Shown here: in pieces, positions 7,774 to 59,082 of the stretch
Position numbering within the stretch: position 1 is the first letter of the stretch
Layout of the letters: every line of letters starts with the position of its first letter
NCBI GenBank assembly: GCA_027483885.1
Contig: JAIXTO010000089.1
Location: forward strand, 1 to 64,000
From: Rhizobiaceae bacterium
GTDB lineage: Bacteria > Pseudomonadota > Alphaproteobacteria > Rhizobiales > Rhizobiaceae
Direction of reading: 5' to 3'
Length of the DNA: 64,000 nt
Notes under the pieces: model-generated
Database searches by the model: none
What the model was told of the DNA's origin: nothing
The model's input: only the letters and a program-made list of their open reading frames with translations
Position numbers and translations under genes: made by a program

Positions 7774-7783
7774 CCCATAATGT

Positions 7784-27995: not shown

Positions 27996-29029
27996 GCGCT
28001 GATCCTTTGAAGTTCTTCGGAACGGTGGCAGGCGGTTTCCACGCCGTTCAGGGACAGAAGCGCAGGAACGATGGTGGAACAGCGCTCCACGGATACGCTA
28101 CAGCGCGGGCGAAAGGCGCAGCCCGCCGGTCGGTTGCGCAGCGATGGCGGCGTGCCCTCGATGGCGACCAGCGGCCCCGCCTCCCCGTCGATCTTCGGCA
28201 GAGCCGCCAACAGACCCCGCGTATAGGGATGCCTCGGATTGTAGAAGACCTCGTCGACACTGCCCTGTTCAACGATGCGACCGCTATACATGACGGCAAT
28301 GCGGTCTGCGGCACCGGCCACGACGCCCAGATCGTGGGTGATGAGGATGAGGCCGATATTGCGCTCCTCGCGCAACCGGTTGAGCAGATCCATGATCTGC
28401 GCCTGCACCGTCACGTCGAGCGCCGTGGTCGGCTCGTCAGCGATCAAAAGGTCAGGCCGATTGGCAATTGCCATGGCAATCATGGCGCGCTGGCGCATGC
28501 CGCCGGAAAATTCGTGCGGATACTGGGTGGCGCGCCGGTCCGGCTGGGGAATGGAAACCTCCGCCAGCAGTTCCACTGCCCGTTCCCAGGCCGCCTTCTT
28601 CGACAGGTCCTTCTCATGCAGGCGCAGCGCCTCGACGATCTGCGCGCCGACAGTCAGGACCGGATTGAAGGCCGTGAGCGGATCCTGGAAGATCATGCCG
28701 ATGCGCGCACCGCGCAACTGGCGCATGGTGGAGGATGTCGCGCCCACAAGCTCCTGCCCGCGAAACCTGGCACTGCCGGTAATCTGCGCTGAGGCCGGCA
28801 GAAGCTGCATCAGCGCCATCATCGTCACGCTCTTGCCCGAGCCGGATTCCCCGACGATGCCGAGCACCTCGCCCGCCCCGACGGAAAGGTCGATGCCGCA
28901 AATGGCGTCCGCCGCACCATCCGGTGAATTGAAAGTGACCTTGAGGTCGCGGACTTCCAGCAAGGGCGCAGTCTGCGTGGCGATGCTCGAGGCCACCGTT
29001 TCGGTTCTTGTCATGGTCTCGTGCCTCAT
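27992..29029 (-). CDS. Oligopeptide/dipeptide ABC transporter ATP-binding protein (DppD-like)
   Basis: [39 protein letters not shown]; start re-assigned. Confidence 0.93.
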
Positions 29030-30931: not shown

Positions 30932-30932
30932 G

Positions 30933-32543: not shown

Positions 32544-32585
32544 GATGTTCCCCTTTTTTTGGCAGTTCGGTTTGGGCAGGCAGGA

Positions 32586-33878
32586 TCAGGCAGCCGCCCT
32601 CGCCTTCAGGCGGGCGGCGACATATTCGTTGGACTGCGGGCCAAGCGTTGCGTAGGCGCGCCGCAGTTCCACAAAAGCGTCCTCCGTCACCGTCAGCGTC
32701 TTTTCGATATCGGCTGGCGTCAGCGCACTGGTCACGAACATGTTGTGATAGGGATGCAGATAGACGCCGCGGCGCACGGCAGCCGCCGTCCAGCAATAAC
32801 CAACGCGCATGTCCGGATCCTCCTCGAACAGCATCTGCGGCATCTGCGACGGGCCTGTCTGGCGCAGTGCAAAGCCGTGACGCAGCGCCTGTTCGGCAAT
32901 GCCGGCGCGCAATCGATCGGCAATCGCGACCATACGCTCCAGATAGTCGCTTTCGCGCACCAGCCGGAGCGTTTCGACGGCCGCCGCCATCGGCACGGCC
33001 GAGAACCAGAAAGAACCGGTGACGAAGATGGAGCGCGCCGCCTCGCGCATCCGGTCAGAGCCGAGCAGGGCGGAAATCGGATAGCCGTTGGCAAGCACCT
33101 TGCCCCAGGCGCTGAGATCCGGCTCAACACCCAGCAGGCTCCAGCTGCAATCACGCGCCAACCGGAAACCGGCACGCACATCATCGACGATCAGCACGGC
33201 ATCGAGATCGTCGCAGATCTTGCGCACACCCTTGGCATAGTCCACCGAAGGCAGGAACTGGTCCTCGAACACCTCGTGGCGGAACGGGGTCGCGAAAATG
33301 CCGGCCACATCGCCGTCGCAGGCCTTCACCGCATCCATCAGGCTATCGAGGTCATTGTAGTCGAAATAGACGATATGCGCGCGGTCCTCCGGCAGGATGC
33401 CGCCCTTGCCGGGCGTCGTCCACACCGAAGCACCATGATAGGCGCCCTTGGCGGCAAGGATCTTGCGGCGGCCGCGATAGGCACGCGCCATGACCATGGC
33501 CATCGAGGTCGCATCGCTGCCGTTCTTGCAGAACATGGCCCAGTCCGCATGGGAGACCATGCCGACAAAATCCTCCGCCAGCCGCACCATGACTTCTGAC
33601 GGGCCGGTCAGGGTGTCGCCGAGCGCCTGCTGCGCACGCGCCGCCGCATCGATGGACGAATGATTATAACCCAACAGGTTCGGGCCATAGGCACACATGT
33701 AGTCGACATATTCATTACCATCGACATCCCACAGGCGGGCGCCTTCGGCTCGCGCAAAGAACTGCGGGTAATCCGCCGGCAGAAGCGCCGTCGATTCATG
33801 CCCATACATGCCGCCGGGAATGACGCGGCGCGCACGCTCCACCAGCTCGCTGTTTTTCGAGTTCGTCCTGACCTGCAT
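32586..33878 (-). CDS. Class-III PLP aminotransferase (glutamate-1-semialdehyde aminomutase-like family)
   Basis: WAMFCKNGSDATSMAMVMARAYRGR; LIVDDVRAGFR; GVEPDLSAWGKVLANGYPISALLG (PLP lysine in WGK). Confidence 0.9.
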   Translation of the reverse strand: MQVRTNSKNSELVERARRVIPGGMYGHESTALLPADYPQFFARAEGARLWDVDGNEYVDYMCAYGPNLLGYNHSSIDAAARAQQALGDTLTGPSEVMVRLAEDFVGMVSHADWAMFCKNGSDATSMAMVMARAYRGRRKILAAKGAYHGASVWTTPGKGGILPEDRAHIVYFDYNDLDSLMDAVKACDGDVAGIFATPFRHEVFEDQFLPSVDYAKGVRKICDDLDAVLIVDDVRAGFRLARDCSWSLLGVEPDLSAWGKVLANGYPISALLGSDRMREAARSIFVTGSFWFSAVPMAAAVETLRLVRESDYLERMVAIADRLRAGIAEQALRHGFALRQTGPSQMPQMLFEEDPDMRVGYCWTAAAVRRGVYLHPYHNMFVTSALTPADIEKTLTVTEDAFVELRRAYATLGPQSNEYVAARLKARAAA

Positions 33879-33931
33879 ATCACCCTCAATGCAACACCCG
33901 ACCGCCGTCAGGCCTCAACAACTGCAAGGAC

Positions 33932-33956
33932 GATAACCATAAATAATTCGGTTATC
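33932..33956. promoter_or_regulatory. Candidate operator upstream of aminotransferase operon
   Basis: GATAACC-N11-GGTTATC inverted repeat in AT-rich region. Confidence 0.4.
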
Positions 33957-34048
33957 AAGCAGGACATGTTTATATTTTTTGCAAAGCCTATATCTGCATA
34001 TTTTTTGCCCAAAGGATGAATTATCGGCCTATTTTCCGCTCAAAAAGC

Positions 34049-34075
34049 ATTTTCGATCAGCAGAATATCGAAAAT
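34049..34075. promoter_or_regulatory. Candidate TetR-type operator
   Basis: ATTTTCGAT-N9-ATCGAAAAT perfect 9-bp arms. Confidence 0.45.
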
Positions 34076-34275
34076 ATCAAACCAAGGGAGAAAGGGACCC
34101 AGCCAAATTAGCTATAATTTATTCGATTATTTTTCGCTTCCGCACAGGTCGGAACTGCCGCAAACCCGCGCGACGATGGGTGCGCGAAGCCGGCAATGGC
34201 AACGAGACATGGGCTTGGCAGGGGACTGACCGAAGATCGGGTCGCGAAACGCATTCGTTTCGACGCTTGGTATTC

Positions 34276-34920
34276 CTAGCGCGCGCGCGGCATATGCTCT
34301 GGCAGATAACAGCGCAGATACATCAACGAGGCACGCACCGCTTCCTGCACATACTCGTCGGTGATCATTCGATGATTGCTGTAGGACAGCGCCCATATGC
34401 CATCGATCAGGGCAAGTGCGATAGCCAGCCGCTTTTCAAGATCCGGCATGGGCGCCATAAGGTAATGGTGGCGCAGATAAGCGGCGCGCTGGCGGGCCAG
34501 CTCCGCATTGCCGGCCACATCGGCATTGCGCACCTCGGCACTGACGCCGGCGCCCATGAACAGGCGCAGCGCCGCCGGATTGGCATTGAGAAACTGCGCG
34601 CTGCGGCTAAGACGAAACTCGAACAGTGCCTGCCAGCGCTCCGGCGGCTCGTTGTTCTCCACCATCAGCATCTCGCCGATCTGGCGGTGGTAACGCTGGG
34701 CAAGCGCAACGAAGACCGCGTTGCGGTTCGGAAAGAAGTGGTAGACCGACGCAATCGGCACCCCGGCCCGTTCGGCAATATGGGCAAGGCTGATGTCGGC
34801 ATCCGGATTTTCCGCAATCAGCGCAGCCGTTGCGTCCAACAGGAATTCGAAGCGCTCGATGCCGCGCTTGCGCATGGGGGCACGATGAAGGGTGGGCGCT
34901 GCGGCAGTCTTTTCGGTCAT
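34276..34920 (-). CDS. TetR family transcriptional regulator
   Basis: HTH SLAHIAERAGVPIASVYHFFPNRNAVFVALAQRY. Confidence 0.9.
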   Translation of the reverse strand: MTEKTAAAPTLHRAPMRKRGIERFEFLLDATAALIAENPDADISLAHIAERAGVPIASVYHFFPNRNAVFVALAQRYHRQIGEMLMVENNEPPERWQALFEFRLSRSAQFLNANPAALRLFMGAGVSAEVRNADVAGNAELARQRAAYLRHHYLMAPMPDLEKRLAIALALIDGIWALSYSNHRMITDEYVQEAVRASLMYLRCYLPEHMPRAR

Positions 34921-35012
34921 GACACCGAAATATCGTTTTTCGGGCGGACACGCAAAGGCAATTGCCGCCTCTGCGCACCCATCCTCCATCGAAAGCACTC
35001 GGATTGAGCCGG

Positions 35013-35978
35013 TCAGGCCGCCGTGTAGTCGATCGCAAAGCTCAGGCGATCATCATAATGCAGGTCCCAATAGGCCTGCCAGATCTGCCGGGTAACCGGC
35101 CCCACCTGCCCGCCGCCCACCGGCACGCCATCCAGCTCGGTAATCGGCATGATGCCGCCGGCCGTTGTCGACATGAAGATCTCGTCACACTGGTAGGCGA
35201 GATCGACAGGCACATGGTCGATATTGACTGTCCAGCCTTTGGCCTCGGCCATCTCCACCACCGTCCGGCGCGTCACGCCCTCCAGCACGCCGCGCGCAGG
35301 CGTGTGCAGCACGCCGTCCTTGACGAGGAAGATGTTGAAGCCCGATCCCTCCGTCAGGTTGCCATCGCCATCCGGCAGGAAGGGATACATGGCGCCGCGG
35401 TCACGCGCCTCGAAAATCCCGCGCACGAAATCCCCCCATTGCAGGTTCTTGACCGTCGGATCGATGGCGCCGGGAGGAATGCGCCGCACGGTGCGGGTCA
35501 TGACGGCACTGCCGCCCCGCGCCTGCACATCCGGCGACATGACCCAGACATAGGGCATGATCAGCAGATAGATGTGGTTTTCGATATCTTCCGGCCGGTG
35601 GGCTCTGACGAATTTGAAGCCGCGCGTCACGGTGATCTGCACATAGGCGTCACGAATGCCGCTTTTTGCGGCCATCTCCATCAGCGTCCGACGCAGCGTG
35701 TCACGGTCCATGGGGCTTGTCAGCCGCAGCTTTGCGCAACTGCGCTCCAGCCGGTCGAGGTGATCGTCGAGACGGAAGAACCGCCCGTCCCAGATGGCCG
35801 GCACGTCATAAGTGAGATCCGAATGCATGAAGCCTTGGTCCAGCAGCGGAATACGGGCCTTGGCCAGCGGCACCAGTTCGCCCTCCACCCAGGCGATACC
35901 ATCCGCATAGGGGTTTTCGCTTTCGGCCAGCGCATCCACGCGCTTCCGATAGGCCTCGATCACGGCTTCCATCGACAT
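35013..35978 (-). CDS. Fold-type IV aminotransferase ((R)-amine transaminase/BCAT/D-amino acid transaminase-like)
   Basis: [58 protein letters not shown] (catalytic Lys); [25 protein letters not shown]. Confidence 0.9.
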
Positions 35979-36084
35979 GTCATGTCCCCTCTTTGTGTGT
36001 GCGCCGGCCATCGCCGTGGCGGCGATAGACGGCTTTTCCCGGTTATTTCGGAATAAGCTAGGAGCACTTCTTTCCTGCGTCAAC

Positions 36085-43160: not shown

Positions 43161-43868
43161 CTAGCCTCGATGATCGCAGCCCTGCAGCCCTCGAAGCGTT
43201 GCGGTCAGCATCACCGCCAGCGCATCGATCAAGGTCGGGCGCATCTGGGACTCCGAATGCATGATGGCGATGACATTTCCCTGCACCGCTTCCAGAATGA
43301 CGATCATCAAGGTCGGAATCTGCCCGTCGGGAAGATCGGGCGCGACCCAGCGCAGGTATGGCTCAAGATCTCGCGCATTGCGCACGGTGTCTTCCATGTC
43401 CAGCTGGCGCAGATCCGGGCTTGAGCGAAGGCTGTCCCAGATGACGGCGGATGCCGGGGTGCGCAGAAGATAGTCCAGCACATTGCGCACCAGCCGGTCC
43501 CCCGTGCATGGGCGAAGGCTCACCGGCATGTCCTCATCCAGGACGGCCGCAAGTTCATGGCCCAGCACATCTCGCAGATTTTCAAGGTGGCGCACCGCAA
43601 GCGCGCGCACGACGCTGCTGCTGGAGGGGAAGTAATGGTAGAGCGATGCGATGGGAAGGCCGGCCCGCCGGGCAAGCTCGCGCATTTTAAGGCCCTCCAT
43701 CCCCGTCTCGACAACAAGGGTCTCGGCAGCGGCCAGAACCTGCTCGACCCGCTCCCGGCTGCGGCTCTGCAAGCCGGTGCTGCGCATGTTCAAGCGGCCT
43801 TCAGCCCCTGATTCCGGGATTTTTGCGTCCATCAGTCGTTCAATTCCTGTTTTTTCAGATTCGAACAT
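43161..43868 (-). CDS. TetR family transcriptional regulator
   Basis: HTH KMRELARRAGLPIASLYHYFPSSSSVVRALAVRH; divergent from the APC-FMO gene; exact start uncertain (43892, 43868 or 43832). Confidence 0.88.
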   Translation of the reverse strand: MFESEKTGIERLMDAKIPESGAEGRLNMRSTGLQSRSRERVEQVLAAAETLVVETGMEGLKMRELARRAGLPIASLYHYFPSSSSVVRALAVRHLENLRDVLGHELAAVLDEDMPVSLRPCTGDRLVRNVLDYLLRTPASAVIWDSLRSSPDLRQLDMEDTVRNARDLEPYLRWVAPDLPDGQIPTLMIVILEAVQGNVIAIMHSESQMRPTLIDALAVMLTATLRGLQGCDHRG

Positions 43869-43958
43869 TGCTCGATATTGACAGAATTGCAAACTCGATC
43901 AATGCTCGGGTTATAAATGACGACCGTCAAGACAATTGGTCGCAAGGGGAACTGAAAC

Positions 43959-46886
43959 ATGGAACTGAACCGCCGAAACTCGGCCACCTATCCGGCTGGC
44001 CAATCGAAAAAACGTGCGCTCACGACACGGGGCGTCATCGTCCTGGTCATTGCCGCGGCAGCACCGCTTGCCGCGATGATCGGCAACACACCACTCGCGT
44101 TCGAAACGGGTGCCGGGCTTGCCATGCCAGCCGGCTTCATTCTCGTCGGGTTGACCTTGCTGTGCTTTGCCTTTGGCTACACGGCGCTCAGCCGCGAAAT
44201 CGTCAGTAAGGGCGCTTTCTATACGCAGGTAGGCCAGGGCCTCGGGCGTCCGGCGGGCGTGATTGCGGCCTATGCCGCAGCGCTTGCCTATTGCGCCTAC
44301 TCGCTCGGCATGGCCGCAGCCTTTGGCTATTTCACCTCCCTTTTGACCAAGGAACTGGGCTATGAATTGCCCTGGATGGGATGTGCTGCCTTCGGCATCC
44401 TCACGGTCGCGGCGCTCGGTTACCGGTCGCTCGATCTGTCGGCGCGTGTTCTCACCTATTTCATGATCGCGGAATTCGCCGTGCTGCTCGTCTTCGACGT
44501 TCTAGTCCTGACGAAGCTCGGGCTTTCGGCGCTTCCGCTCCAGGTCTGGTCTGCGGGCGAAGCCTTCAACCCCGCCATTGGCGCGATCATTCCCTTTGTC
44601 ATCGTTTCCTTCCTCGGTTTCGAAGCCGCCGCGCTTTACGGCGAGGAAACAAAAAATCCGCGGCGCTCCATCCCGATTGCCACCTATGTTTCGCTATCCG
44701 TCATCGTCGCCTTCTACATGGTCTCGGTGTGGATCATCATCGGCTCGATCGGAACCGCCGAGGTGCAGACCATGGCGACCCGCGAATCTGGCAATCTGCT
44801 TTTTGCGCTCGCCAATAGCTATGGCGGCGAAGCGTTGACGGCGGTCATGGGCCTGCTTCTGGTCGCCAGCATGCTCGCAAGCTTCCTTGCCGTTCATAAC
44901 GCCGCCAGCCGTTATCTGTTTGCGCTGTCAAGTGATCATCTACTGCCCGGCGCACTGGCCAAGTTCCATCCGGATTATCATTCACCCCACGTGGCAAGCG
45001 TGGTCATGACGACGCTGCAGCTCACCGTGGTCTTCGGTCTCGGGATGTATGGCGTCGCGCCCTATCTCGGCATTGCATCTTCCGCCATCGGTCTTGGCAC
45101 CATCGGCATTCTGTCCATGCAGATCGCCTGCTCGCTTGCCGTTGTCGGCTTCTTCGTGAAGGCCAAGCGCGGCCATGTCATGACAACGCGCATCCTGCCG
45201 ACCCTGGGCGCTCTCGGGTTGGCGGCATGTCTTTATCTCGTCACCAACAGCTATGAAAAGCTGACCGGCAGTGACAATGCCTTGGTCAACGGCCTGCCCT
45301 GGGTGTTCGTGCCGCTTGCCGTTGTGGCGCTCGTCTATGCCCGCTACCTCAAGGCAAAACGGCCGAATGTCTATGCGCAGATTGCCGGCGCGCAGTACCG
45401 CCCGGTTCTTAACCGAACCGCCACCGAGACCAGCTACGAGAACCAGTATTGCATCATCGGTGCCGGCCCCTCGGGCCTCATCATGGCCCGCGCCTTCATC
45501 AAGGAAGGCGTACCATTTGATTGTTTCGAACGGTATTCGGATGTCGGTGGCCTCTGGGACCCGAACAATCCGGGCACGCCGATCTATGAAAGCGCCCATT
45601 TCATTTCCTCGAAATGGACCTCCTATTTCTACGGCTTCCCGATGCCGGACCATTATCCGGACTATCCGTCCTACCGGCAGATTCTCGATTACATCCGCTC
45701 TTTTGCCCGCGCTTTCGGCCTTTACGATCACATCACCTTCAACACGGAAGTGGTGTCGGCCGTGCCTGCCGGGGATAAATGGAAGGTTACGCTCTCCACC
45801 GGTGAAGTGCGCGTCTACGCGGGTGTTGTGGCCTGCCCGGGCGTGACCTGGCATGCTTCCATTCCCAAACTCCCGGGTGCCGAAACGTTCAAGGGCGAGA
45901 TCCGCCATTCGGTCAGTTACATGAAACCGGATGAATTCCGGGGCAAACGCGTGCTGGTCATGGGGGCTGGCAATTCCGGCGTCGATATCGCCTGCGATGC
46001 GGCAAAATTCGCCGACAAGGCCTTCTTCAGCGTTCGCCGCGGCTATCGTTTCGTTCCAAAGCACCTCTTCGGCATTCCAACGGATGTTCTGATGAGCGGC
46101 AAGGTTCTGCCGCCAAAGGGTGTCTCCATCTCCACCGACGTCGGCAAGATGCTGGACACGCTGAACGGCGACCTGACACGGCTTGGCCTGCCGAAGCCCG
46201 ATCACGATGCGCTTTCCAGCCATCCGATCATGAACACGCAGATCCTGCACTATCTCGGCCATGGCGATCTCATCGCAAAATCCGATATCAAGGAATTGCG
46301 CGGCAATACGGTCGTCTTCAAGGACGGCTCGGAGGAAGAGATTGACCTCATCATGCTGGCCACCGGCTATGAGTACAAGATGCCTTTCTTCGATCCGGCA
46401 ATGTTCGAGTGGAAGGACGGGCGCCCGCAGCTCTACCTGAACGTCATCCATCGCACGCAGCGCGGTCTTTACGTTCTGGGCTTCACCGAATTCGCCGATG
46501 CCGCCTATCGCCGTTTCGACGAAATGGCCCAGCTCATCATTGCCGATGTTCACGCCACCGAAACCGGCATTGCTCGCGACTGGCTGAACCGCCAGCTCAC
46601 AGGCCACTTCCCGGATCTGCGCGGCGGCAAGGTCTATATCAACTCGCCGCGTCACGCCAACTACGTCCACACCGATACCTATAAGCGGCTTCTGGCTGAG
46701 TTTCGCCGCCAGCTCGGCTGGCCGGATCTCGACGACGAGTTCTATGCCGACCTGCGCCGCCCGGACAACAACGTCCATGCCCTTGCCGGGGCAGGCAGAA
46801 CGGGCGGCCAAACGCCCCGCAGCCCGCAACTCAACGCCCTTGAGAACACGGTGCAGGAAACCAAAGCACTGGAGGCTGGCCAATGA
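43959..46886 (+). CDS. Fusion protein: APC-superfamily amino acid/amine permease joined to flavin-containing monooxygenase
   Basis: Residues about 1-470 APC permease (RGVIVLVIAAAAPLAAMIGNTPLAF, VSFLGFEAAALYGEETKNPRRSIP). Residues about 495-975 FMO: FAD GAGPSG, FMO motif FKGEIRHSVSY, NADPH GAGNSG. Confidence 0.9.
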   Translation: MELNRRNSATYPAGQSKKRALTTRGVIVLVIAAAAPLAAMIGNTPLAFETGAGLAMPAGFILVGLTLLCFAFGYTALSREIVSKGAFYTQVGQGLGRPAGVIAAYAAALAYCAYSLGMAAAFGYFTSLLTKELGYELPWMGCAAFGILTVAALGYRSLDLSARVLTYFMIAEFAVLLVFDVLVLTKLGLSALPLQVWSAGEAFNPAIGAIIPFVIVSFLGFEAAALYGEETKNPRRSIPIATYVSLSVIVAFYMVSVWIIIGSIGTAEVQTMATRESGNLLFALANSYGGEALTAVMGLLLVASMLASFLAVHNAASRYLFALSSDHLLPGALAKFHPDYHSPHVASVVMTTLQLTVVFGLGMYGVAPYLGIASSAIGLGTIGILSMQIACSLAVVGFFVKAKRGHVMTTRILPTLGALGLAACLYLVTNSYEKLTGSDNALVNGLPWVFVPLAVVALVYARYLKAKRPNVYAQIAGAQYRPVLNRTATETSYENQYCIIGAGPSGLIMARAFIKEGVPFDCFERYSDVGGLWDPNNPGTPIYESAHFISSKWTSYFYGFPMPDHYPDYPSYRQILDYIRSFARAFGLYDHITFNTEVVSAVPAGDKWKVTLSTGEVRVYAGVVACPGVTWHASIPKLPGAETFKGEIRHSVSYMKPDEFRGKRVLVMGAGNSGVDIACDAAKFADKAFFSVRRGYRFVPKHLFGIPTDVLMSGKVLPPKGVSISTDVGKMLDTLNGDLTRLGLPKPDHDALSSHPIMNTQILHYLGHGDLIAKSDIKELRGNTVVFKDGSEEEIDLIMLATGYEYKMPFFDPAMFEWKDGRPQLYLNVIHRTQRGLYVLGFTEFADAAYRRFDEMAQLIIADVHATETGIARDWLNRQLTGHFPDLRGGKVYINSPRHANYVHTDTYKRLLAEFRRQLGWPDLDDEFYADLRRPDNNVHALAGAGRTGGQTPRSPQLNALENTVQETKALEAGQ

Positions 46887-47716
46887 GCACGCGCAAGATA
46901 CTCGACGGCAAAGGCAAGTTCGCGCTCGTCACCGGGGCTGCGGGTGGCATCGGCCAGCCCATCACCCGCAGGTTGCTGGATGCAGGCTTCCATGTCCTGA
47001 TGCTCGATATCAACGCGACGGGGCTTGAGGCGGCAAGGGCTAAGCTTGACGGCACCACTACAGGCATTGTCTGCGATCTCACAGATCCTGCCTCCGTCGC
47101 GCAGGCTGCGGCCAGCGTGGGCGCGCTCACCGGGCGGATCGACGTCATCGTCAACAATGCCGGCCTCATCAAGCCCGGCCCTTTCCTCAGCCTGAAGGAA
47201 GAGGATATCGAGCGGCAGGTTCAGATCAACCTGCTGGGTCCTCTGCGGATCCTGCATCATTTCCTGCCGTCTGTCCCGAACGGCGGCTCGGTGGTCAACA
47301 TCGTGTCCATGGCCGGCATCCTGCCGCTTGCCGATAGCAGCGTCTATACCGCCGGAAAGTTCGGCCTGCGCGGCTTTTCCAATTCGCTTTCGCTGGAATT
47401 GCGCAGCCGCAACATCCGCGTATCGGGCATTTATCCGTCCGGCGTCGATACGCCCATGCTGCGAATGGAAGCGCAGAGCGGCGGTTCACCGCTCAACTTC
47501 GTGTCGGATCCGCTATCTGCAGAACAGGTGGCGGAAACGGCCGTGCGCGCCATCGGCGAAGGCCGGCTCGAATATTACCTGCCCTACGGCGACGGTATCC
47601 TGTCGCGGATTCTGGGAAACATTCCGTGGATCCTGCCGCGCCTGCTGCCGATGTTCTTGAAAAAGGGGATCGAGGGACACAAGCGTTACCTCGCAAAAAT
47701 CGGGGTTAATCAATAA
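46883..47716 (+). CDS. SDR-family NAD(P)-dependent oxidoreductase
   Basis: FALVTGAAGGIGQPITRRLLDAG; VNNAGLIKPG; YTAGKFGLRGFS (YxxxK); ATGA overlap with the fusion gene. Confidence 0.93.
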   Translation: MSTRKILDGKGKFALVTGAAGGIGQPITRRLLDAGFHVLMLDINATGLEAARAKLDGTTTGIVCDLTDPASVAQAAASVGALTGRIDVIVNNAGLIKPGPFLSLKEEDIERQVQINLLGPLRILHHFLPSVPNGGSVVNIVSMAGILPLADSSVYTAGKFGLRGFSNSLSLELRSRNIRVSGIYPSGVDTPMLRMEAQSGGSPLNFVSDPLSAEQVAETAVRAIGEGRLEYYLPYGDGILSRILGNIPWILPRLLPMFLKKGIEGHKRYLAKIGVNQ

Positions 47717-47734: not shown

Positions 47735-48682
47735 ATGAAAACGAGACTCTGCAGGATGGCCGCCCTTGGTCTTGTCGCGCTTGGTGCCCAGACGGCGCCC
47801 GGCATGGCGGGGGAAGGGGCAAGCAGCAACATGACCCTGGGGGGCACTACCTTCCAGACCCCAGTCATTCCGGAACCGGGCTTTTATTACAGCAACTATG
47901 TGAACTATTACCACGCCAACCGGCTGAACGACGGCGAAGGCAACAGCCTGGTGCCGAATTTCAGCGTCGATGCCTGGGTGGATTACAACCAGTTCGTGTA
48001 TGTCGCACCGTTCGAGCTTGGCGATTTCAAGTTCGCCGCGGGCGCGGTTGTGCCCTTCGCCAGTATCCGCCAGAATGCCGGCGGCACCATCAGCTCGTCC
48101 AAAGGGCTTGCCGACATAGTCCTGCAGCCGCTTATCATCGGCTGGCAGAAGGACAATTTCCATGTCGTTCTCGTCCAGGGGATCATCGCTCCGACAGGGG
48201 CCTATGACGCGGCATCCGACGTCAATGCCGGGCGCAACACCTGGCAATACCAACCGCAATTGTCTCTCGGATACGTCGATCCGCAGGGCATCGAGGCAAC
48301 AGCGTCAATCACCTACATCACCAGCGGAACCAACAAGGACCCGATGGTTTTCTTTGCCAACACGACCGGTTCGGATTATCGCACCGGCGACGAGATCGGC
48401 ATGGACTTTGCCCTCGGTTACAACTTCACGCCCAGCTTCGAACTGGGTTTGACAGGTTACTATTACCAGCAGCTTTCCGCCGACAAGATGAGCGATCCGG
48501 CGGGCGATGCGATCCTGCAGCAGGCTTTCGGCGGCTTCAAGGGGCGCGTCGCAGCGCTTGGTGTCGGTGCCCGATACCTCACCGAATACGGTGAGTTCTA
48601 TGCCCAGGTCCACAAGGAGTTTGCGGTCGAAAACCGTACGGCGGGAACCTCGGCCTGGCTGCGCTGGAGCATATCCTTCTAA
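47735..48682 (+). CDS. Outer-membrane transporter-like protein (Phenol_MetA_deg/SphA-like)
   Basis: Signal peptide; GFYYSNYVNYYHANRLNDGEGNSLVPNFSVDAWVDYNQFVYV; beta-barrel pattern, terminal WLRWSISF. Confidence 0.75.
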   Translation: MKTRLCRMAALGLVALGAQTAPGMAGEGASSNMTLGGTTFQTPVIPEPGFYYSNYVNYYHANRLNDGEGNSLVPNFSVDAWVDYNQFVYVAPFELGDFKFAAGAVVPFASIRQNAGGTISSSKGLADIVLQPLIIGWQKDNFHVVLVQGIIAPTGAYDAASDVNAGRNTWQYQPQLSLGYVDPQGIEATASITYITSGTNKDPMVFFANTTGSDYRTGDEIGMDFALGYNFTPSFELGLTGYYYQQLSADKMSDPAGDAILQQAFGGFKGRVAALGVGARYLTEYGEFYAQVHKEFAVENRTAGTSAWLRWSISF

Positions 48683-48882: not shown

Positions 48883-50034
48883 TCAGGGCACAAGGCCCGC
48901 TGGCACCGTCCGGCGACGCGCCGACAGGCCGACGAGGACGAATATCGCGACAACCATGAAGGTGGCGAAAAACGCCGGCGCCTCGCCGATGGTCGCATCG
49001 CTCAGCAGCAGCGAGGCAGACAGCGGCCCGAAAGCGCAGCCAAGCAACTGGGCAGTGCCAAGCTGCATGGCGGTCCGGCGGCTGGGATCGATCCGGATGA
49101 GAAGCTGTGTCTGGAACGGCATCATGAAAATCCAGAGAAAGCCGAAACCCATGGAGGCGAGCGTGAAGCTGAGGCCGGTCGGGCCGGATTGAAGGATCGC
49201 GGCAACGCCGAGGTTCAAAAGCCCTCCGATCAACAGGCTGAGAAATGGCGACCATCGCGGGCCGATGGCGGTGGCGGCAAGGCCGCCGGCGAGCTGGGCG
49301 ACCAGAGAGAGCGCAATCAGGCCACCGGCATCTTCCTGGCTCATGCCGGCGTGAACTGCCAGCGGCTCCAGATAGACCCAGAGGCCGACGGAAAAGGACA
49401 TGAAGAAGAAAACACAGAGGAGTCCGGCGGCACCCTTCAAGCTGATGCCCGTGCCCTCTCCGCTTTGTCCCTTCGCAAGCGGCTCATAGCTCTCGTGTCC
49501 ACGCAGCGAAAGGCCAGCGGCAAGGACGGAAATGGCGGCCATCAGCATGAAGGCACCGTTCGGGCCCCATGCGGGGATGACCAGCAGAGCCAGTGCGGCG
49601 GCAAGGAAGGTCTGGGTCAGTGCCTGCCAGATGACGAACAGGCCGGTATACCGTTCAGGGCTTCGCGAATGCATGATGGTGCTGATCGCCGTCCAGAGCA
49701 TTACGCCCTCGGCCACACCACTTGCACCCCGCACGAGCACGAGGGCAACGCCGCCGAGCGGAATGCTGAACAGGTTGATGGCGGCATGGGCAAGGCTTGC
49801 CGCAACAAGGATCGGCCGCACGCGCACTGCGTTGAAGCGCGCGGCCGCGAGGCCGCAGGCCAATCCGAGCATCAGCAGTTCCACTGTGGCTGCAAGCCCG
49901 ATTTCGTTGACGGTCAACCGGTTGTCATGCGCGAGCGCACCGAGAAGGATCGGCTGGACGCCCGCGATCAGCAAAGCGATGGAGCCGATGGTCAAAGCTC
50001 CGAGATCTTTGAAAAATGCGAAATTCCTGGTCAT
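48883..50034 (-). CDS. MFS transporter
   Basis: 12-TM protein with MFS-like repeats; start re-assigned to MTRNFAFFKDLG. Confidence 0.88.
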   Translation of the reverse strand: MTRNFAFFKDLGALTIGSIALLIAGVQPILLGALAHDNRLTVNEIGLAATVELLMLGLACGLAAARFNAVRVRPILVAASLAHAAINLFSIPLGGVALVLVRGASGVAEGVMLWTAISTIMHSRSPERYTGLFVIWQALTQTFLAAALALLVIPAWGPNGAFMLMAAISVLAAGLSLRGHESYEPLAKGQSGEGTGISLKGAAGLLCVFFFMSFSVGLWVYLEPLAVHAGMSQEDAGGLIALSLVAQLAGGLAATAIGPRWSPFLSLLIGGLLNLGVAAILQSGPTGLSFTLASMGFGFLWIFMMPFQTQLLIRIDPSRRTAMQLGTAQLLGCAFGPLSASLLLSDATIGEAPAFFATFMVVAIFVLVGLSARRRTVPAGLVP

Positions 50035-50105
50035 TGCGTTCCCCTTTTTTATGATTGCGCAATGGGTGGAGCCAAGGCACCGGCAGGTTACGTCGGGCCC
50101 GAACG

Positions 50106-50135
50106 AAAAAGGCACCGGGGTTGCCCCCGGTGCCT
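50106..50135 (-). terminator. Rho-independent terminator after aminotransferase gene
   Basis: AGGCACCGGGG / CCCCGGTGCCT 11-bp stem; minus-strand T-run (TTTTT). Confidence 0.85.
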
Positions 50136-50143
50136 CGTTTGGA

Positions 50144-51421
50144 TCATGCCGCGTGCAGGATCTCGTTGAGAGCGACGATCTGCGGCGGAGGTGCTTGCGG
50201 GTTCTCCTTGGCCAGCGCCTTGAAGCTCTCTTCGGCGGCGGCAAGGGTGAAGTCGATATCCGCATCGGTCATCGATGCTGACATGAACATGTTGTGCCAG
50301 GGATGCATGTAGACGCCCTGTGCCAGCATGTTGCTGACCCAGCTGTAGCCCTTGGCAAGATAAGGGTCGTCCTGGAACATGATCAGCGGCATTTCAGCAG
50401 GACCGGTCTGGCGAAGACCGAAACCGTAACGGCCTGCAGCTGCATCCAGTCCCTGCCGCAACAGCCCGCCCAGCCGCTGGGTCTCCTCGAGGTAGTTGGT
50501 GTCGCGGATCAGCGCGAGCGTGGCGAGCGAAGCGGCCATGGCAGCGCCCGACAGCCAGTAGGACCCGGTAACATAGATGCTGGCGGCGGCATAACGCGCC
50601 TTGTCATTGCCAAGCAGCGCCGACAGCGAATGGCCGTTGGCAATCGCCTTGCCCCAGCATGACAGATCCGGCTCGACGCCGACGAGAGACCAGCTGCAAT
50701 CGCGGGCCAGACGAAAGCCTGCGCGTACATCGTCGACAATCAGAAGCGCACCTTTTTCATCGCACAATTCACGGGCGCGACGGGCATAGTCCGGGTTCGG
50801 CAATTCCTGATCGATGAAGGCATCATGCTTGATCGGCGAAGCGAGGATGGCGGCGAGATCGTCGCCTGCTTCCCGAACGGCTGCTTCAAGGCTTTCGACA
50901 TCGTTATATTCGTAGAAGATCTGATGCGCACGGTCGCCCGGCGTGGTTCCATAGGGAAACGGCGTCGACCAGGGAGCTGCACCATGATAGGCGCCTTTGG
51001 CGATGACCAGGGTATGGCGGCCGGTATGTTTTCTGGCCACCATCGTTGCCATGGTGTTGGCGTCCGAGCCGTTCTTGCAGAACATCGCCCAATCGGCATG
51101 CGACACCATGCGTGTCAGCGTTTCCGCCAGTTCCACCGCAAGCGCGGTCGGGCCGGTCAGGCACTCTCCCGTCTTCAGCTGATCCGTATAGGCACGGTCG
51201 ATGGTCTCATTGGCATAGCCAAAAAGTGTCGGGCCGTAACCGCAGAGATAATCGACGTATTTCCGTCCATCGACATCCCAGAGATAGGCACCTTCTCCTT
51301 TTGAGAAGAACTGCGGATAGGCCGAAGGCAGAAAGCGGACCGACTGGTGTCCGTAAATGCCGCCGGGCATGACGGCTTCGGCGCGCTGGCGAAGTGCTGC
51401 ATCGAGTATTGCGTCTGTCAT
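50144..51421 (-). CDS. Class-III PLP aminotransferase (glutamate-1-semialdehyde aminomutase-like), paralogue of 32586-33878
   Basis: MPGGIYGHQSVRFLPSAYPQFFSKGEGAYLWDVDG; HADWAMFCKNGSDANTMATMVARKHTGR; GVEPDLSCWGKAIANGHSLSALLG. Confidence 0.9.
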   Translation of the reverse strand: MTDAILDAALRQRAEAVMPGGIYGHQSVRFLPSAYPQFFSKGEGAYLWDVDGRKYVDYLCGYGPTLFGYANETIDRAYTDQLKTGECLTGPTALAVELAETLTRMVSHADWAMFCKNGSDANTMATMVARKHTGRHTLVIAKGAYHGAAPWSTPFPYGTTPGDRAHQIFYEYNDVESLEAAVREAGDDLAAILASPIKHDAFIDQELPNPDYARRARELCDEKGALLIVDDVRAGFRLARDCSWSLVGVEPDLSCWGKAIANGHSLSALLGNDKARYAAASIYVTGSYWLSGAAMAASLATLALIRDTNYLEETQRLGGLLRQGLDAAAGRYGFGLRQTGPAEMPLIMFQDDPYLAKGYSWVSNMLAQGVYMHPWHNMFMSASMTDADIDFTLAAAEESFKALAKENPQAPPPQIVALNEILHAA

Positions 51422-51500: not shown

Positions 51501-51654
51501 ATGCATATCGCGAGAAACTCTGCACCCGCACAGGCAAACGCCTTTCTGGTGTGCACGAAAGCTGCGCGCCGACATTCAGCCTCACCGCGCCTTGAGGCCG
51601 CCACCGCGCTGTGCCACAAGCGACACAAGAGAAGTCCACGGCAGCATCGCCGTC

Positions 51655-52317
51655 ATGTCAGGGAAATACGGGACGTTGGTTGACCTCGATCCGAAGCTTG
51701 AGCCCTCGCAGATGCGGGCGCGCAACACCTACGAAACGATCCTTGCCGTGACGGGCGATCTGCTCGGCAAAGTCGGCTTCGAACGGCTGTCAACCAATAT
51801 GGTGTGCCAGACGGCGGGGCTGACCCCACCGGCGCTTTATCGGTACTTTCCGAACAAATATGCGATATTGAGCGAGCTGGCCCGGCGGCTGATGGATAGC
51901 CAGGATGAGGCCGTTTATCGCTGGATACAGGAGGGCGGCATCGAGGCGTGCAGCGTTGACGATGCCGCGAGCAAGAATCTTGCGATCCTGCGCGAAATCA
52001 ACCGGATCACCCGCGACATGCCCGGTGGCGCCTGGGTGCTGAGGGCAATGCGTGCCGTTCCCCTGCTCCAGGAAATCCGTATCCAGTCGCGTGACCGGGT
52101 TGCCGCGCATCTCGTCCAGACACTGGAGCAGAGCCATCCCGCCCTCAACACCGACGAGTTCGTCGGCGGTGTCGGGATCATCCTCGATATGATGATGTCC
52201 GTGACGGAAATGGTCCTCACCGAGCCCGACATCGACGAGGCCGCCGTGGAGCGGCGCGCCTGCCGTATGGCGGCTCTCTATTACCTGGACCTGATCTCCA
52301 ATCCGTCTTCGGCATAA
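51655..52317 (+). CDS. TetR family transcriptional regulator
   Basis: HTH LSTNMVCQTAGLTPPALYRYFPNKYAILSELARRL. Confidence 0.88.
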   Translation: MSGKYGTLVDLDPKLEPSQMRARNTYETILAVTGDLLGKVGFERLSTNMVCQTAGLTPPALYRYFPNKYAILSELARRLMDSQDEAVYRWIQEGGIEACSVDDAASKNLAILREINRITRDMPGGAWVLRAMRAVPLLQEIRIQSRDRVAAHLVQTLEQSHPALNTDEFVGGVGIILDMMMSVTEMVLTEPDIDEAAVERRACRMAALYYLDLISNPSSA

Positions 52318-53263: not shown

Positions 53264-55054
53264 ATGCCTCTCTCGAATATCCGTAATTTCTGCATCATTG
53301 CCCATATTGACCACGGCAAGTCGACACTCGCCGACCGTTTCATTGAGATGACCCAGACGGTAACCGACCGCGACATGCAGGAACAGCTGCTTGATTCAAT
53401 GGATATTGAGCGAGAGCGCGGCATCACAGTGAAGCTGCGCCCAGTGCGCATGCAGCACCGAGCCGCGGACGGCATCGACTACCAGTTCAACCTGATCGAT
53501 ACACCCGGCCATGTGGATTTCTCCGCTGAAGTCAGTCGTAGCCTTGCGGCCTGCGAGGGCGCAATCGTCCTGATCGATGCGACGCAGGGCGTGCAGGCGC
53601 AGACCATTGCCAATGTGCGGCTGGCGCGCGAACAGGGGCTGAAGTTGCTTGCCGTTCTCAATAAGATCGACAGTCCACTTTCCGATCCGCAGCGCATCAT
53701 TCGCCAGCTTTACGACATCGAGGGGCTCGATCCGGACGAGGTGCTGCTGGTATCGGCCAGAACCGGCGAAGGCGTTCGCACGGTGCTGGACGCGATTGCA
53801 AGCACGTTCCCACCGCCAGAAAGCAAGGATGAGCTGCTGCGGGCGCTTGTCTTCGACAGCTATTACGATCCCTATCGGGGCGTGGTCCTTTCAGTGCGCG
53901 TCGTGGACGGCACCGTGGCAGTGGGCAATCGCATTCGCTTCATGTCGGCACCTGCCGGGTTCGAAGTGACTGAAGTGGGCATTTTTCGACCCGAACTTGT
54001 GCCGTGGAAAAAACTCTCGGCCGGAGAGGTTGGTTATGTCGCAACCGGCATCAAGGACCCCACCTACATCCGGCTCGGTGACACGCTGACATGGATGGAC
54101 AAGCCCGCGCAACAGCCGGTTGCCACCTACCGTGAATCCAAACCCATGGTGTTTGCAGGTCTATACCCTTCCGGCAATCTGACCATCAACATGTTGCGCG
54201 ATGCGGTGCAGAAGCTCGCGCTGAATGACGCCGCCTTCCGCGCCGAAGCCGAAGTTTCGGAAGCTCTAGGCGCTGGCTATCGCTGTGGTTTCCTGGGTAT
54301 GTTGCATCTGGAGATCATCAAAGAGCGACTGAGACGGGAGTATGGCGTCGAAGTCATCACCACTGCGCCGAGCGTTGTCTACAAGGTGACGCTCAAAGAC
54401 GGCGAAGTACGCTTCATCGACAATCCAGCCCATTTTCCGAACCCGGAGACACTCGAGCTTGCCGAAGAACCGATGGTGTCAAGCGTGATTCAGACGCCCT
54501 CGGATCACGTTGGCGCGGTGATGGAATTGTGCGGTCGCAGCCGTGGCATCTTCGGCACACTGGATTATGGCGATGATGGTTATGCGCGCATTGCTTATGA
54601 ACTGCCCATGAGCCAGATGGCCTTTGGCTTTTTCGACAGCCTGAAATCCCTGACCCAGGGTTATGCCACACTGGATTACGAGTTCTCCGATTACCGTCCC
54701 GCTGATCTTGTGCGTGTGGATATCCTGATCGAGAATCAACCAGTCGATGCCTTCGCCTTTGTGTGCGTGCGACTGCAGGCCTACGAGAAAGCCGCCGATA
54801 TCGTTCACAGACTGAAATATGTCATGCCAAAAAAGCTCTATCCTGTGCCGCTTCAGGCCGCCATCGGCAGCCGCGTGATCGCCCGCGAAGATATTCCTCC
54901 ATTGCGCAAAGATGCGCTGGCCAAGGGCTTCGAGGGGAGCATGTCGGCAAAAAACAGACTGATCCGCAAGGCGAAGGAAAACAAGGGCAAGCGACACGGA
55001 CTTTCCCGGGGCGACATCCCCAAGGAAGCCTTTCTCGCGATACTGGGCGTATGA
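53264..55054 (+). CDS. LepA/EF4-family translational GTPase, divergent paralogue
   Basis: [39 protein letters not shown]; LepA C-terminal region ending [16 protein letters not shown]. Confidence 0.93.
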
Positions 55055-55093: not shown

Positions 55094-56305
55094 CTACGGC
55101 GCGCTCTTTTCTTCGAAGTCGCTGAGCATCTGAAATAAATCCTCGCGATCCTGATCAAGATGCGGTGGAGGGCGATGAAGGCGAACGGGCGTCACCGACA
55201 TTTTCAGAGGATTGCCAAGAAGGCGCAGAGGCTGCCCCTCCGGCGTCTGCATGTCCACCACCATCTCCCGCGCCAGCGTGTGCGGATTGGAGACGACCTG
55301 ATCGATGGTTGCCACCCGCCCGGCGGGGATTTCGGCCAGGACGAGACGTCGCTCCCATTGTTCCGCCGTCTGCGTTTTCAAGGCCTCGGTGACAAGACCG
55401 TCCAGCGCATCGATATTCACCACCCGGTCGCGGTTGCGGGCGAAACGCGCGTCGTGAACAAGTTCCGGCGTGCCGATGACTGCACAAAAACGGGCAAACT
55501 GCTGATCGTTGCCAACGGCGATCGCGATGTCACCGTCCGCTGTCGTGAAGGTCTGATAGGGTGCGATGTTGGGATGCCGGTTGCCGATCCGTGCCGGTAT
55601 CCTGCCGGAGACCAGATGGTTTGTTGCTGCATTGATCAGCCAGGCCACCTGGGCGTCGTAAAGCGCCAGATCGATATATTGGCCTTCACCTGTGCGATCC
55701 CGGTGGCGAAGAGCGGCCAGGATGCCGACCGTCGCGTACATGCCGCACATGACGTCCGCAATGCCGAGACCGACCTTGACTGGCCGCCCTCCATCCGCGT
55801 CACTGTCGCCGGTGATGCTCATGATGCCACCCATGGCCTGGATCAGGAAATCGTAGCCGGTGCGGTCAGCGTAAGGCCCTGTCTGGCCAAAGCCTGAAAT
55901 CGCACACCAGACGATATCCGGCTTGACCCTGCATAGGTCGTCATACCCAAGGCCGCGGCGCGCGAGGTCGCCCGGCTTGTAGTTTTCGATGAGGACATCG
56001 CACATCGCCACCAGTCGTTTGACCAGCGCGACCCCGTCTTCGGTCGCAAGATCGATTGCGATCGATCGCTTGTTGCGGTTGGCCGAGAGGAAATAGGCGC
56101 TGAGATCACTGTCGCTTCCATCAGCATTGGCAACAAAGGGCGGGCCCCAGCTGCGGGTATCATCCCCGGCTCCCGGCCGCTCGACCTTGATGACATCCGC
56201 GCCCAGATCGGCGAGAAGCTGCGCCGCCGTCGGCCCGGCCAGGATGCGAGAGAGGTCAAGGATGCGCAGCCCCTCGAGGCTTTGGGGCTTCTGGTGGTCG
56301 GACAT
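55094..56305 (-). CDS. Family III CoA-transferase (CaiB/BaiF)
   Basis: LEGLRILDLSRILAGPTAAQLLADLGADVIKVERPGAGDDTRSWGPPF...NRNKRSIAIDL. Confidence 0.94.
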   Translation of the reverse strand: MSDHQKPQSLEGLRILDLSRILAGPTAAQLLADLGADVIKVERPGAGDDTRSWGPPFVANADGSDSDLSAYFLSANRNKRSIAIDLATEDGVALVKRLVAMCDVLIENYKPGDLARRGLGYDDLCRVKPDIVWCAISGFGQTGPYADRTGYDFLIQAMGGIMSITGDSDADGGRPVKVGLGIADVMCGMYATVGILAALRHRDRTGEGQYIDLALYDAQVAWLINAATNHLVSGRIPARIGNRHPNIAPYQTFTTADGDIAIAVGNDQQFARFCAVIGTPELVHDARFARNRDRVVNIDALDGLVTEALKTQTAEQWERRLVLAEIPAGRVATIDQVVSNPHTLAREMVVDMQTPEGQPLRLLGNPLKMSVTPVRLHRPPPHLDQDREDLFQMLSDFEEKSAP

Positions 56306-56312
56306 CGACACC

Positions 56313-57458
56313 TCACGATTTCCAGGGGGACATTTTGAACCAGCGAACCAGATAGGCAGCCGCAATCAGGGTGGCAAAGCCAAACAGGTTGCCGATCACT
56401 TCGGCAGAAGTCGTACGGCCGGCATGATCAAGAGCGATGCCGATCGGCTGAGCGATGACGATGCCGGTGATGAAGACGGCGAGCGATTGTTGTCCAACGA
56501 CGGTCAGCACACGCACGATCCGACCGCGCAGGCGCGCACCCTTTTCGCCGACCAGATGCACCGCGATATAACAGAGGGCCAGGAAATGAACGAAGCGGAG
56601 CAGGCCGAAATCGGTCTTGTCGGTCAGCGGAGCGATCTGCTCGGCCGCCATCTGGAAGAAAGGATGGACCGCGTGGAAATGCACCCATGCGAAAGGCACC
56701 GTGACGATCACGATTGCAACGGCAAGCACCATCAGACGACGGTCATAGCCCGGTGACGGCAGCGTGCCACGCATGAGGAAAAAACCGCTGTAGAACAGAA
56801 GTTGCCAGCCGAAGGGATCGAAAAACCATGGGCGATCCGACCAGGGCTCGGCCGGCAGGCGTGTCAGTCCGAACTGGGTTGCACACCATAAGGCAACCAT
56901 CAGGGCGAGAGGCAGGTAACGATGCACGTTCGAGGCAAAGATCATCAATGGCATCAATGCCAGGATGACGATGTACATCGGAAGGATGTCAAAATAGTTC
57001 GGCACGTAGGTCAGCGTCAGCAATCCGACCAGCAGGCCGCCCGGATCCTTCATGAAGGGCACGAGGTTGAGGCTTTCGACATAGGTGACGCCGTCATAGC
57101 GTGTTCCCGCCAGGACCATCATGGCAACAACCACGACAAAGACGGCAATGTGAGCCCAGAAGATCTGCCAGATGCGGTGTCCGACACGCGCAATCAGCGC
57201 AGTTGCGCCCTGGCGATCATAGGTCGAGCCAAAGGCAATCGCCGATGCCATGCCGGATTGAAAGACGAACATTTCCGTCGCGTCCGAAAAGCCGAAGCGC
57301 GCCGGTATCCAGAGCGCCCAGCCATCATCGGGGATATGCGCCAGCAGAATGATGAGCATGCCAATGCCGCGAAAGAAATCGAGGCGCAGATCGCGGGGAC
57401 GTTTTATCTCTAGTGCAGCCGACGCCTGTTTCGCCTGTGTATCAGAAGGCGCCGTCAT
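56313..57458 (-). CDS. OpgC-domain membrane protein
   Basis: RDLRLDFFRGIGMLIILLAHIPDDGW; multi-TM OpgC/acyltransferase-3-like; start re-assigned. Confidence 0.82.
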   Translation of the reverse strand: MTAPSDTQAKQASAALEIKRPRDLRLDFFRGIGMLIILLAHIPDDGWALWIPARFGFSDATEMFVFQSGMASAIAFGSTYDRQGATALIARVGHRIWQIFWAHIAVFVVVVAMMVLAGTRYDGVTYVESLNLVPFMKDPGGLLVGLLTLTYVPNYFDILPMYIVILALMPLMIFASNVHRYLPLALMVALWCATQFGLTRLPAEPWSDRPWFFDPFGWQLLFYSGFFLMRGTLPSPGYDRRLMVLAVAIVIVTVPFAWVHFHAVHPFFQMAAEQIAPLTDKTDFGLLRFVHFLALCYIAVHLVGEKGARLRGRIVRVLTVVGQQSLAVFITGIVIAQPIGIALDHAGRTTSAEVIGNLFGFATLIAAAYLVRWFKMSPWKS

Positions 57459-59082
57459 AGGCTCTGGCATCGAACCTGCAGGCGATAAGGCTGAAGCCCG
57501 GACGTCTTCCGGCGTCCTCAAGCGCGTTACGGAAGTCATCGATTGTCTCCACATTCACACCATGGCCGCCAAATCCTTGCGCGACGGCGGCAAAATCCGT
57601 TTCCCCGAGAGTGACACCGACCGAAGGCAGCCCGGCAGATGCCTGCTTCAGGGCGATCAGCGCGAGGCTGCGGTCCTGGAACAGAACGACGGTTACCGGC
57701 AGGCCGAGATCGCGAAGAGTTGCAAGTTCGCCGATGCCCATTTCAAGGCCGCCGTCACCCATCACGGCAAAAACCCGCCGCGACGGATCGGCAACCTTCG
57801 CGCCGATCGCCAACGGCAAGGCCGCATTCATGGTGCAGAAACCGGCGGACTGGAGAAGGGTGAGCGGCTGGGTCGCAACCCATTTTTGCGACAGAAGGAT
57901 ACGATGGGCGCCGCTATCGACGGTCACGAGGCCACCCGGACCGGCAACGCGGTTCAAATGATCGATGATCGCATGGGGTCCCCACGGCTGTTTTGTTGAA
58001 AAGATCCGCCGAAGCTCTGTTTTCGCCGCCTCAGGCTCCCCATCCGCCCTTGTCCTGCGCTGCGCAAGCGCACCGTTGAGGGCCTGCAGGATGCGTGACG
58101 GCGCGCCACCGATCCAGGTGCCAGCGTGATGCATGGCGTGATCGGGAGGGACGCTCGACATATCCACCAGCTTTGCCGGATCGGCGACGAAATCCAGCCA
58201 GCCAAGACGCATTTCTATCGGATCGTAACCGACGAGAAGCACCAGATCCGCTTGCCGTGCCAGCGGAAGGAGAACAGCATCTGCCAGCGGCGACAGGCCC
58301 GCAGCACCAAGCGCCAGCGGATGGTCTTCCGGGATGACGCCCTTGGCCTTGTAGGTGGTGATCACAGGGGCGCCGATGGTCTCTGCCAGATGCTGCAGCG
58401 CGGGTCCGGCCTGACTGCGGGCCGCTTCAAGGCCGGCTATAAGCAACGGCCGATCGGCACCCTGGATACGCTCCAACAGAAAACGAACAGCAGGCTCTGC
58501 CCCGGAAACGGGGGCCGCGAACCGTTTCGGGGGCGCGGGAATAGATGTTTCCATGCTGGATGCTGCAGCAACTGCAGGCGAAAGATCCAGATGCACAGGC
58601 CCCATCGGGTCTGTCATTGCAATTGCAAGAGCCCGCGCCACAGTGGAGGCGGCACTTTCAGGCTCGATTTCGAACGATGCCTTGACGAGCGGTCGCAACA
58701 GCTGAGCGTGGTCGATCACCTGGTGCGTGTAGCGTGCGCGCGTGGCACGGTCGACGACACCAGAAATGACCACCAGCGGAACCCGTTCCTGCACGGCATC
58801 GGCAATGCCGTTGACGGCATTTGCAAGACCCGGACCGACCGTTGTCACCAGCAGTTCGGGATGAGCAGTCATGGCACTGGCACCCGCTGCCATGATGGCG
58901 GCAGACGTTTCATGACGCGCGAGATGGAACGTTATTCCAGCCGTTTGCAGGGCGTCGATCAGTGTCACCACCTCTCCGCCCGGCACACCGAAGGCATGGC
59001 GCACATCGTGTGCGTGGAGGGTCTTTGCAACGATGTCGGCAACGCGGTTCAGACTTCGGGCCAGGCTTCGGGATTGAGACAT
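57442..59082 (-). CDS. ThDP-dependent acetolactate synthase-like enzyme
   Basis: AFGVPGGEVVTLIDAL; catalytic Glu in ARHETSAAIMAAGASA; GDGGLEMGIGELATLRDLGLPVTVVLFQDRSLALI. Confidence 0.88.
   Translation of the reverse strand: MSQSRSLARSLNRVADIVAKTLHAHDVRHAFGVPGGEVVTLIDALQTAGITFHLARHETSAAIMAAGASAMTAHPELLVTTVGPGLANAVNGIADAVQERVPLVVISGVVDRATRARYTHQVIDHAQLLRPLVKASFEIEPESAASTVARALAIAMTDPMGPVHLDLSPAVAAASSMETSIPAPPKRFAAPVSGAEPAVRFLLERIQGADRPLLIAGLEAARSQAGPALQHLAETIGAPVITTYKAKGVIPEDHPLALGAAGLSPLADAVLLPLARQADLVLLVGYDPIEMRLGWLDFVADPAKLVDMSSVPPDHAMHHAGTWIGGAPSRILQALNGALAQRRTRADGEPEAAKTELRRIFSTKQPWGPHAIIDHLNRVAGPGGLVTVDSGAHRILLSQKWVATQPLTLLQSAGFCTMNAALPLAIGAKVADPSRRVFAVMGDGGLEMGIGELATLRDLGLPVTVVLFQDRSLALIALKQASAGLPSVGVTLGETDFAAVAQGFGGHGVNVETIDDFRNALEDAGRRPGFSLIACRFDARAYDGAF

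Follow-up and report, generated by a model that had tools for sequence, protein, structure and literature searches.

Transporters and enzymes joined in a single polypeptide are already known, for example SulP anion transporters with a carbonic anhydrase attached (Felce and Saier 2004, as cited in PMC6458275), which combine a transporter and an enzyme for one presumed metabolite. The gene described here likewise combines a complete transporter and a complete enzyme in one conserved open reading frame (ORF), but differs in its transporter superfamily and in its enzyme, with hydration there and oxygenation here; it contains neither SulP nor carbonic anhydrase domains, so the two are linked by analogy only. 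On the transporter side, the closest described systems are APC permeases (PF13520), such as BasC, ApcT, AdiC and the bacterial CAT homologue 5oqt, which share with the fused permease twelve transmembrane (TM) segments, cytoplasmic N- and C-termini and a fold matching over the whole domain; the stand-alone permeases compared end shortly after TM12, whereas in the fusion a full enzyme follows. On the enzyme side, class B flavin monooxygenases (FMOs), including DiatB (8z12), ancestral mammalian FMO1/2/5 and the Zonocerus pyrrolizidine alkaloid N-oxygenase, have in common with the fused FMO the fold, the two dinucleotide folds, and the FxGxxxHxxxY and ATGY motifs, but the nearest solved one is ~33% identical to it and, unlike these enzymes, the fused FMO sits behind a permease.

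Unfused relatives are found in units where a TetR regulator is divergent to an FMO gene and its short-chain dehydrogenase (SDR) partner (Rhodobacterales and others; L031, L032, L034, L044, L103). Their FMOs belong to the same family (51–54% identity) and their TetR is related, but no permease lies between TetR and FMO. A cluster on the Rhodococcus erythropolis R138 plasmid pCRE138 (L081) brings permease, SDR and FMO together as in the fusion locus, but as separate genes. Both halves thus belong to well-known families, and it is the permease-FMO combination that is new to the open-licence literature searched, where no description of a transporter-FMO fusion was found; an earlier notice elsewhere is possible. 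A first, sequence-only reading of this DNA had likewise known of no characterised protein of this kind.

Architecture of the fusion gene

The window, i.e. the whole stretch of 64,000 nucleotides that was analysed (contig JAIXTO010000089.1 of the Rhizobiaceae bacterium assembly GCA_027483885.1), holds at 43959–46886 (+) an ORF of 975 aa, uninterrupted as the sequence-only reading had it, with an ATG start and no internal stop (Table 1). Two Pfam profiles match it in succession, AA_permease_2 (PF13520) at aa 25–432 (E 6e-26, 91.7 bits against a curated cut-off of 27) and FMO-like (PF00743) at aa 497–831 (E 2e-60, 204.9 bits against a curated cut-off of 22). Hydropathy resolves twelve TM-like segments in the permease half, and positive charge is concentrated on its N-terminus, cytoplasmic loops and C-terminus; this clean positive-inside pattern puts both permease termini in the cytoplasm, and the FMO is consequently predicted to be cytoplasmic. 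An AlphaFold2 model built from a 41-sequence input (mean pLDDT 86.7, pTM 0.81, linker ~65–71) aligns over residues 15–478 to solved APC transporters (BasC, Z 35.3; ApcT, Z 35.0) and over residues 495–912 to class B FMOs (DiatB, Z 40.4; AncFMO5, an ancestral FMO5, Z 35.6). The first half is accordingly an APC family member by profile, by its twelve TM segments with N-in/C-in topology and by fold, and the second a class B FMO by profile, by its FAD and NADPH dinucleotide folds and by fingerprint, which bears out the order of domains first proposed.

The motifs quoted in the sequence-only reading (GAGPSG, FKGEIRHSVSY and GAGNSG) were all found in the FMO half, and with ATGY all four FMO motifs of the window protein are intact. 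The strict fingerprint FxGxxxHxxx[YWF] is present in the window protein and absent from two of the nine intact fusions. Some FMOs, such as FMO5, perform Baeyer-Villiger chemistry. Assignment to the type I Baeyer-Villiger monooxygenases was rejected, as a Y replaces the W of their fingerprint FxGxxxHxxxW in the window protein, which may still have Baeyer-Villiger activity itself. How are the two halves joined? The linker sequence quoted in the sequence-only reading is correct, and its first part, as far as residue ~479, looks like the end at which stand-alone permeases naturally stop. The chain then enters the natural N-terminus of stand-alone FMOs, so that two whole proteins are joined by ~15 residues.

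Table 1. Features of the fusion gene and of its neighbours in the window.
Feature	Position	Strand	Basis and remarks
APC permease-FMO fusion, 975 aa	43959..46886	+	Single ORF; Pfam; nine intact full-length members including that of the window
APC permease domain, aa 1-462, 12 TM, N-in/C-in	43959..45344	+	PF13520; hydropathy, positive-inside; APC fold Z ~35
Junction, aa 463-495: permease C-terminus RPNVYAQIAG and ~15-aa fusion-specific linker	45345..45443	+	GxGxxG at residue 499-503 in nine fusions; pLDDT ~65-71
Class B flavin monooxygenase domain, aa 496-930	45444..46748	+	PF00743; DiatB Z 40.4; dN/dS ~0.05
FAD-binding GAGPSG, aa 501-506	45459..45476	+	Motif search
FKGEIRHSVSY (FxGxxxHxxxY), aa 644-654	45888..45920	+	Motif search
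NADPH-binding GAGNSG, aa 669-674	45963..45980	+	Motif search
ATGY motif, aa 801-804	46359..46370	+	Motif search
Divergent C-terminal tail, aa 931-975	46749..46883	+	Low identity, low pLDDT
Short-chain dehydrogenase	46883..47716	+	PF00106; SDR adjoins FMO in most relatives; start overlaps fusion stop by 4 bases (ATGA)
MetA-pathway outer-membrane-type protein (PF13557)	47735..48682	+	Pfam; likewise after SDR in L029 and T29
Divergent TetR regulator	43161..43892	-	PF00440; related TetR divergent to fusion in L028, L029, T29 and L102
MFS transporter	48883..50265	-	PF07690; homologue in G948 cluster and in unfused G1028 cluster
Class III aminotransferase close to FumI (aminopentol aminotransferase)	50144..51421	-	6hbs E 2.7e-149, next relative 1e-51
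Second TetR regulator	51592..52317	+	Pfam; 38.5% homologue near fusion in G948
Second FumI-like aminotransferase	32586..33878	-	6hbs E 6.2e-191
Class IV aminotransferase, (R)-selective amine transaminase kind	35013..36083	-	8xiy, 4ce5, E ~1e-154 to 1e-157

Conservation, distribution and origin

The transporter-monooxygenase fusion is genuine. It is rare but has been kept in two bacterial families that are only distantly related. Nine intact full-length members were found, including that of the window: five in Rhizobiaceae and four in another alphaproteobacterial order, all of one family (L127, L131, L132, L134). The Rhizobiaceae members besides the window are those of Rhizobium wuzhouense W44 (L028), a Rhizobium metagenome-assembled genome (L029), Agrobacterium sp. 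T29 and L102, which are 69–88% identical to the window protein, as compared with ~50% for the other order. The T29 gene, annotated merely as 'amino acid permease', sits on a complete conjugative plasmid of 451 kb (NZ_CP040642, L080). In all nine proteins, the GxGxxG motif starts at residue 499–503. A tenth fusion (L133, G1261:C279), from the same family as L127, L131, L132 and L134, has one in-frame TGA inside its FMO part, which may represent a real pseudogene or an assembly error.

Among the three closest members (window, L028, L029), dN/dS is ~0.06 for the permease and ~0.05 for the FMO (range 0.05–0.07), 0.10–0.18 for the 33-aa junction and 0.2–0.6 for the C-terminal tail, and it is 0.06–0.14 for the permease in pairs without L102; for more distant pairs dS approaches saturation and such ratios are only approximate. 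Both halves are under purifying selection, and values of ~0.05 in both among the three closest members exclude chance. Between orders, the halves have diverged to ~42% (permease) and ~58% (FMO) identity, and of the internal segments the linker has the lowest conservation (36–58% between the more distant Rhizobiaceae pairs). An assembly, frameshift or pseudogene artefact, as might be suspected from a window genome that is a draft of 252 contigs and from the TGA of the related draft genome L133, has a negligible probability, since the fusion recurs in independent assemblies, one of them a complete plasmid, and dN/dS in it is low; the frameshift that the sequence-only reading had envisaged at the junction is ruled out by these independently assembled orthologues.

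That the FMO is translated separately, from a start codon within the ORF, was also considered and rejected: in L028 and L131, one from each family, the 45 codons that precede the FMO nucleotide fold contain neither ATG nor GTG nor TTG, which makes it unlikely. In the window, the sole candidate internal start is a GTG that falls within TM12 and is not preceded by any obvious Shine-Dalgarno sequence. The fusion may be cleaved proteolytically into two parts.

The fusion gene belongs to the accessory genome. Within the genus, a search of the 56 other genomes gave no match at E 1e-90; full-length fusions were present in 3 of 394 genomes of the family (including the window's own), in 5 of 199 from the other-order family (one with the TGA), and, the window's own apart, in none of 289 genomes across the class. 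These genome samples were tool-drawn, and the counts are not population frequencies. As to universally separate genes in close relatives, the other possibility raised at the outset, every genome found with halves this similar has them fused.

In the permease tree, the halves of all ten fusions are monophyletic (support 100/98). So are the nine FMO halves (83/52), which are joined with the R. erythropolis L081 FMO at 100/99, in a tree that leaves out the longest-branch rows. Taken together, these two clades suggest a single old fusion event as the simplest reading of the trees. Two independent fusions are disfavoured by the permease clade and by the common junction position. The monophyly of the FMO halves against Rhodococcus L081 alone is weak (83/52), and a fission on the Rhodococcus side may thus have occurred. 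Gene order is fusion-SDR in Rhizobiaceae and SDR-fusion in those members of the other-order family in which an SDR was found, indicating that the fusion outlived a rearrangement.

Gene neighbourhood and unfused relatives

Two FumI-like transaminases and a relative of (R)-amine transaminases lie within ~11 kb of the window fusion. The substrate of FumI is hydrolysed fumonisin B1, which the enzyme converts to the 2-keto form by deamination (PMC2933618). In G948, the fusion, an SDR, a FumI-like transaminase, an MFS transporter and two TetR regulators are grouped as in the window, with a homologue of the 50144–51421 product (65.6% identity) near the fusion; in T29, a transaminase pair is located ~8–9 kb upstream of the fusion, near which a homologue of the class IV enzyme (35013–36083) also occurs (65%). 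More generally, a class III aminotransferase was found within ~10 kb of four of the nine fusions, of three of the closer unfused FMOs, and of none of 13 loci whose FMO is less than 44% identical. This association is moderate; the loci are unequal in length and were sampled non-randomly. Most FumI-like transaminase clusters elsewhere list no close homologue of the fusion's FMO. One FumI-like transaminase, encoded on a Pseudosulfitobacter plasmid, has as its partner another FMO-related enzyme, with the motif FAGTQLHSSQY (FxGxxxHxxxY); this enzyme (L138, 6004–7731, minus strand; nearest solved structure 8acs) is divergent from the FumI-like transaminase unit.

Outside fusions, FMO relatives (~50–54% identity) occur in TetR-divergent FMO-SDR units, or in FMO-SDR units, in Rhodobacterales, Acidimicrobiia and gammaproteobacteria, and in several genomes a related TetR is divergent to an unfused FMO. 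In Rhizobiaceae, the permease occupies precisely the space that separates the divergent TetR from the FMO. The pCRE138 cluster holds its APC permease (37%), SDRs and FMO (56%) as individual genes, showing that these parts associate unfused too. Stand-alone permease relatives adjoin a class III aminotransferase and a tyramine oxidase in Phyllobacterium, a class III aminotransferase in Mesorhizobium, and genes annotated as VlmB-like, flavin reductase and acyl-CoA dehydrogenase-like in Streptomyces; to judge by valanimycin, such clusters would hydroxylate amines.

Several other observations were made at these loci. In L131, a second flavin oxidoreductase of 604 aa (7356–9170, plus strand) is convergent to the fusion and carries a type I Baeyer-Villiger-like fingerprint, FKGHSFHTSRW. 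The SDR that follows the fusion in L102 (12549–13367) is only 40% identical to that of the window, though the fusion itself is ~70% identical, and may have been replaced or be faster-evolving (the T29 SDR is 62% identical). On the T29 plasmid (NZ_CP040642, L080), genes annotated as a dimethylamine monooxygenase subunit, DUF3445 and a PDR/VanB oxidoreductase (13947–16399) lie just upstream of the fusion's regulators. In the window, oligopeptide-type ABC transporter genes stand beside the second FumI-like aminotransferase and the (R)-amine-transaminase relative, and this region (26994–36083, minus strand) looks like a separate amine-catabolism cluster. A second, divergent LepA/EF4 is encoded at 53264–55054 (+), 46–48% identical to canonical LepA, of which a copy is present on another contig, and ten relatives examined gave one match each. 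At 55094–59082 (-), genes for a family III CoA-transferase and a TPP-dependent enzyme, which possibly serve oxalate catabolism, flank an OpgC-family gene. Searches of a phage collection and of PHROGs returned nothing relevant.

Proposed function and alternatives

The neighbourhood points to amine catabolism. The sequence-only reading had proposed an amine or a ketone as substrate, and the amine type gains support both from the FumI-like and (R)-amine transaminases and from the aminotransferase or amine-oxidase neighbours of the stand-alone permease relatives. We lean towards the following scheme, which seems to us somewhat better than an even bet. The APC domain would take up an amine-type substrate (amine, amino alcohol or amino acid derivative), and the tethered cytoplasmic FMO, using FAD, NADPH and O2, would oxygenate either the imported compound or the carbonyl product of the neighbouring transaminases at the inner membrane face; the overlapping SDR would perform the following redox step, and the divergent TetR would regulate the fusion-SDR unit. 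We infer the direction of transport, the class of substrate and the link between uptake and oxidation; import coupled to oxidation, as first proposed, appears to be the best explanation.

Which compound would the FMO act on? The logic of the fusion favours the imported compound itself (N-oxygenation); judged by the transaminase context, a ketone or aldehyde would be the likelier substrate (Baeyer-Villiger-type oxidation). If a transaminase acted first, the FMO substrate would not come straight from the permease. Other points against the scheme are that a class III aminotransferase lies near only four of the nine fusions, that most FumI-like transaminase clusters elsewhere list no close homologue of this enzyme, and that two fusions lack the strict fingerprint; APC proteins can be exchangers, and net uptake by the fusion is not assured. 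A bolder version of the scheme, which we put forward tentatively and as the less probable of the two, would make the protein the first transporter-monooxygenase: the APC importer would hand its substrate to the tethered FAD/NADPH monooxygenase, whose immediate oxygenation of it at the membrane would make uptake one-way (vectorial oxidation), or would swap the substrate for its oxygenated product.

Among the alternatives, the permease part could mainly anchor the FMO, or transport independently, with transport and oxygenation uncoupled. The moderately ordered linker, least conserved of the internal segments, and the existence of unfused FMO-SDR pairs without any linked permease speak for this, but the permease keeps its full length under purifying selection, and a mere anchor would need no twelve conserved helices; we regard this alternative as unlikely. 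Slightly less likely still, in our estimation, is an APC domain working as an antiporter (substrate in, oxygenated product out) or as an exporter of a detoxified product. The model does match solved exchangers such as AdiC and BasC (Z 32–35), and TetR control would fit uptake or detoxification alike. Transport direction is unreadable from sequence, but the nearby SDR and transaminases suggest that the product is catabolised further and not released.

Metabolite channelling between a transporter and an enzyme has often been proposed but is rarely testable. With import coupled to oxidation as the preferred reading, a polypeptide kept fused across divergences to ~42% and ~58% identity makes channelling testable with split and dead-domain constructs. 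Beyond the fusion itself, its association with transaminase neighbours may guide functional work on the larger family of unfused FMO-SDR pairs, for which amine-type substrates are suggested.
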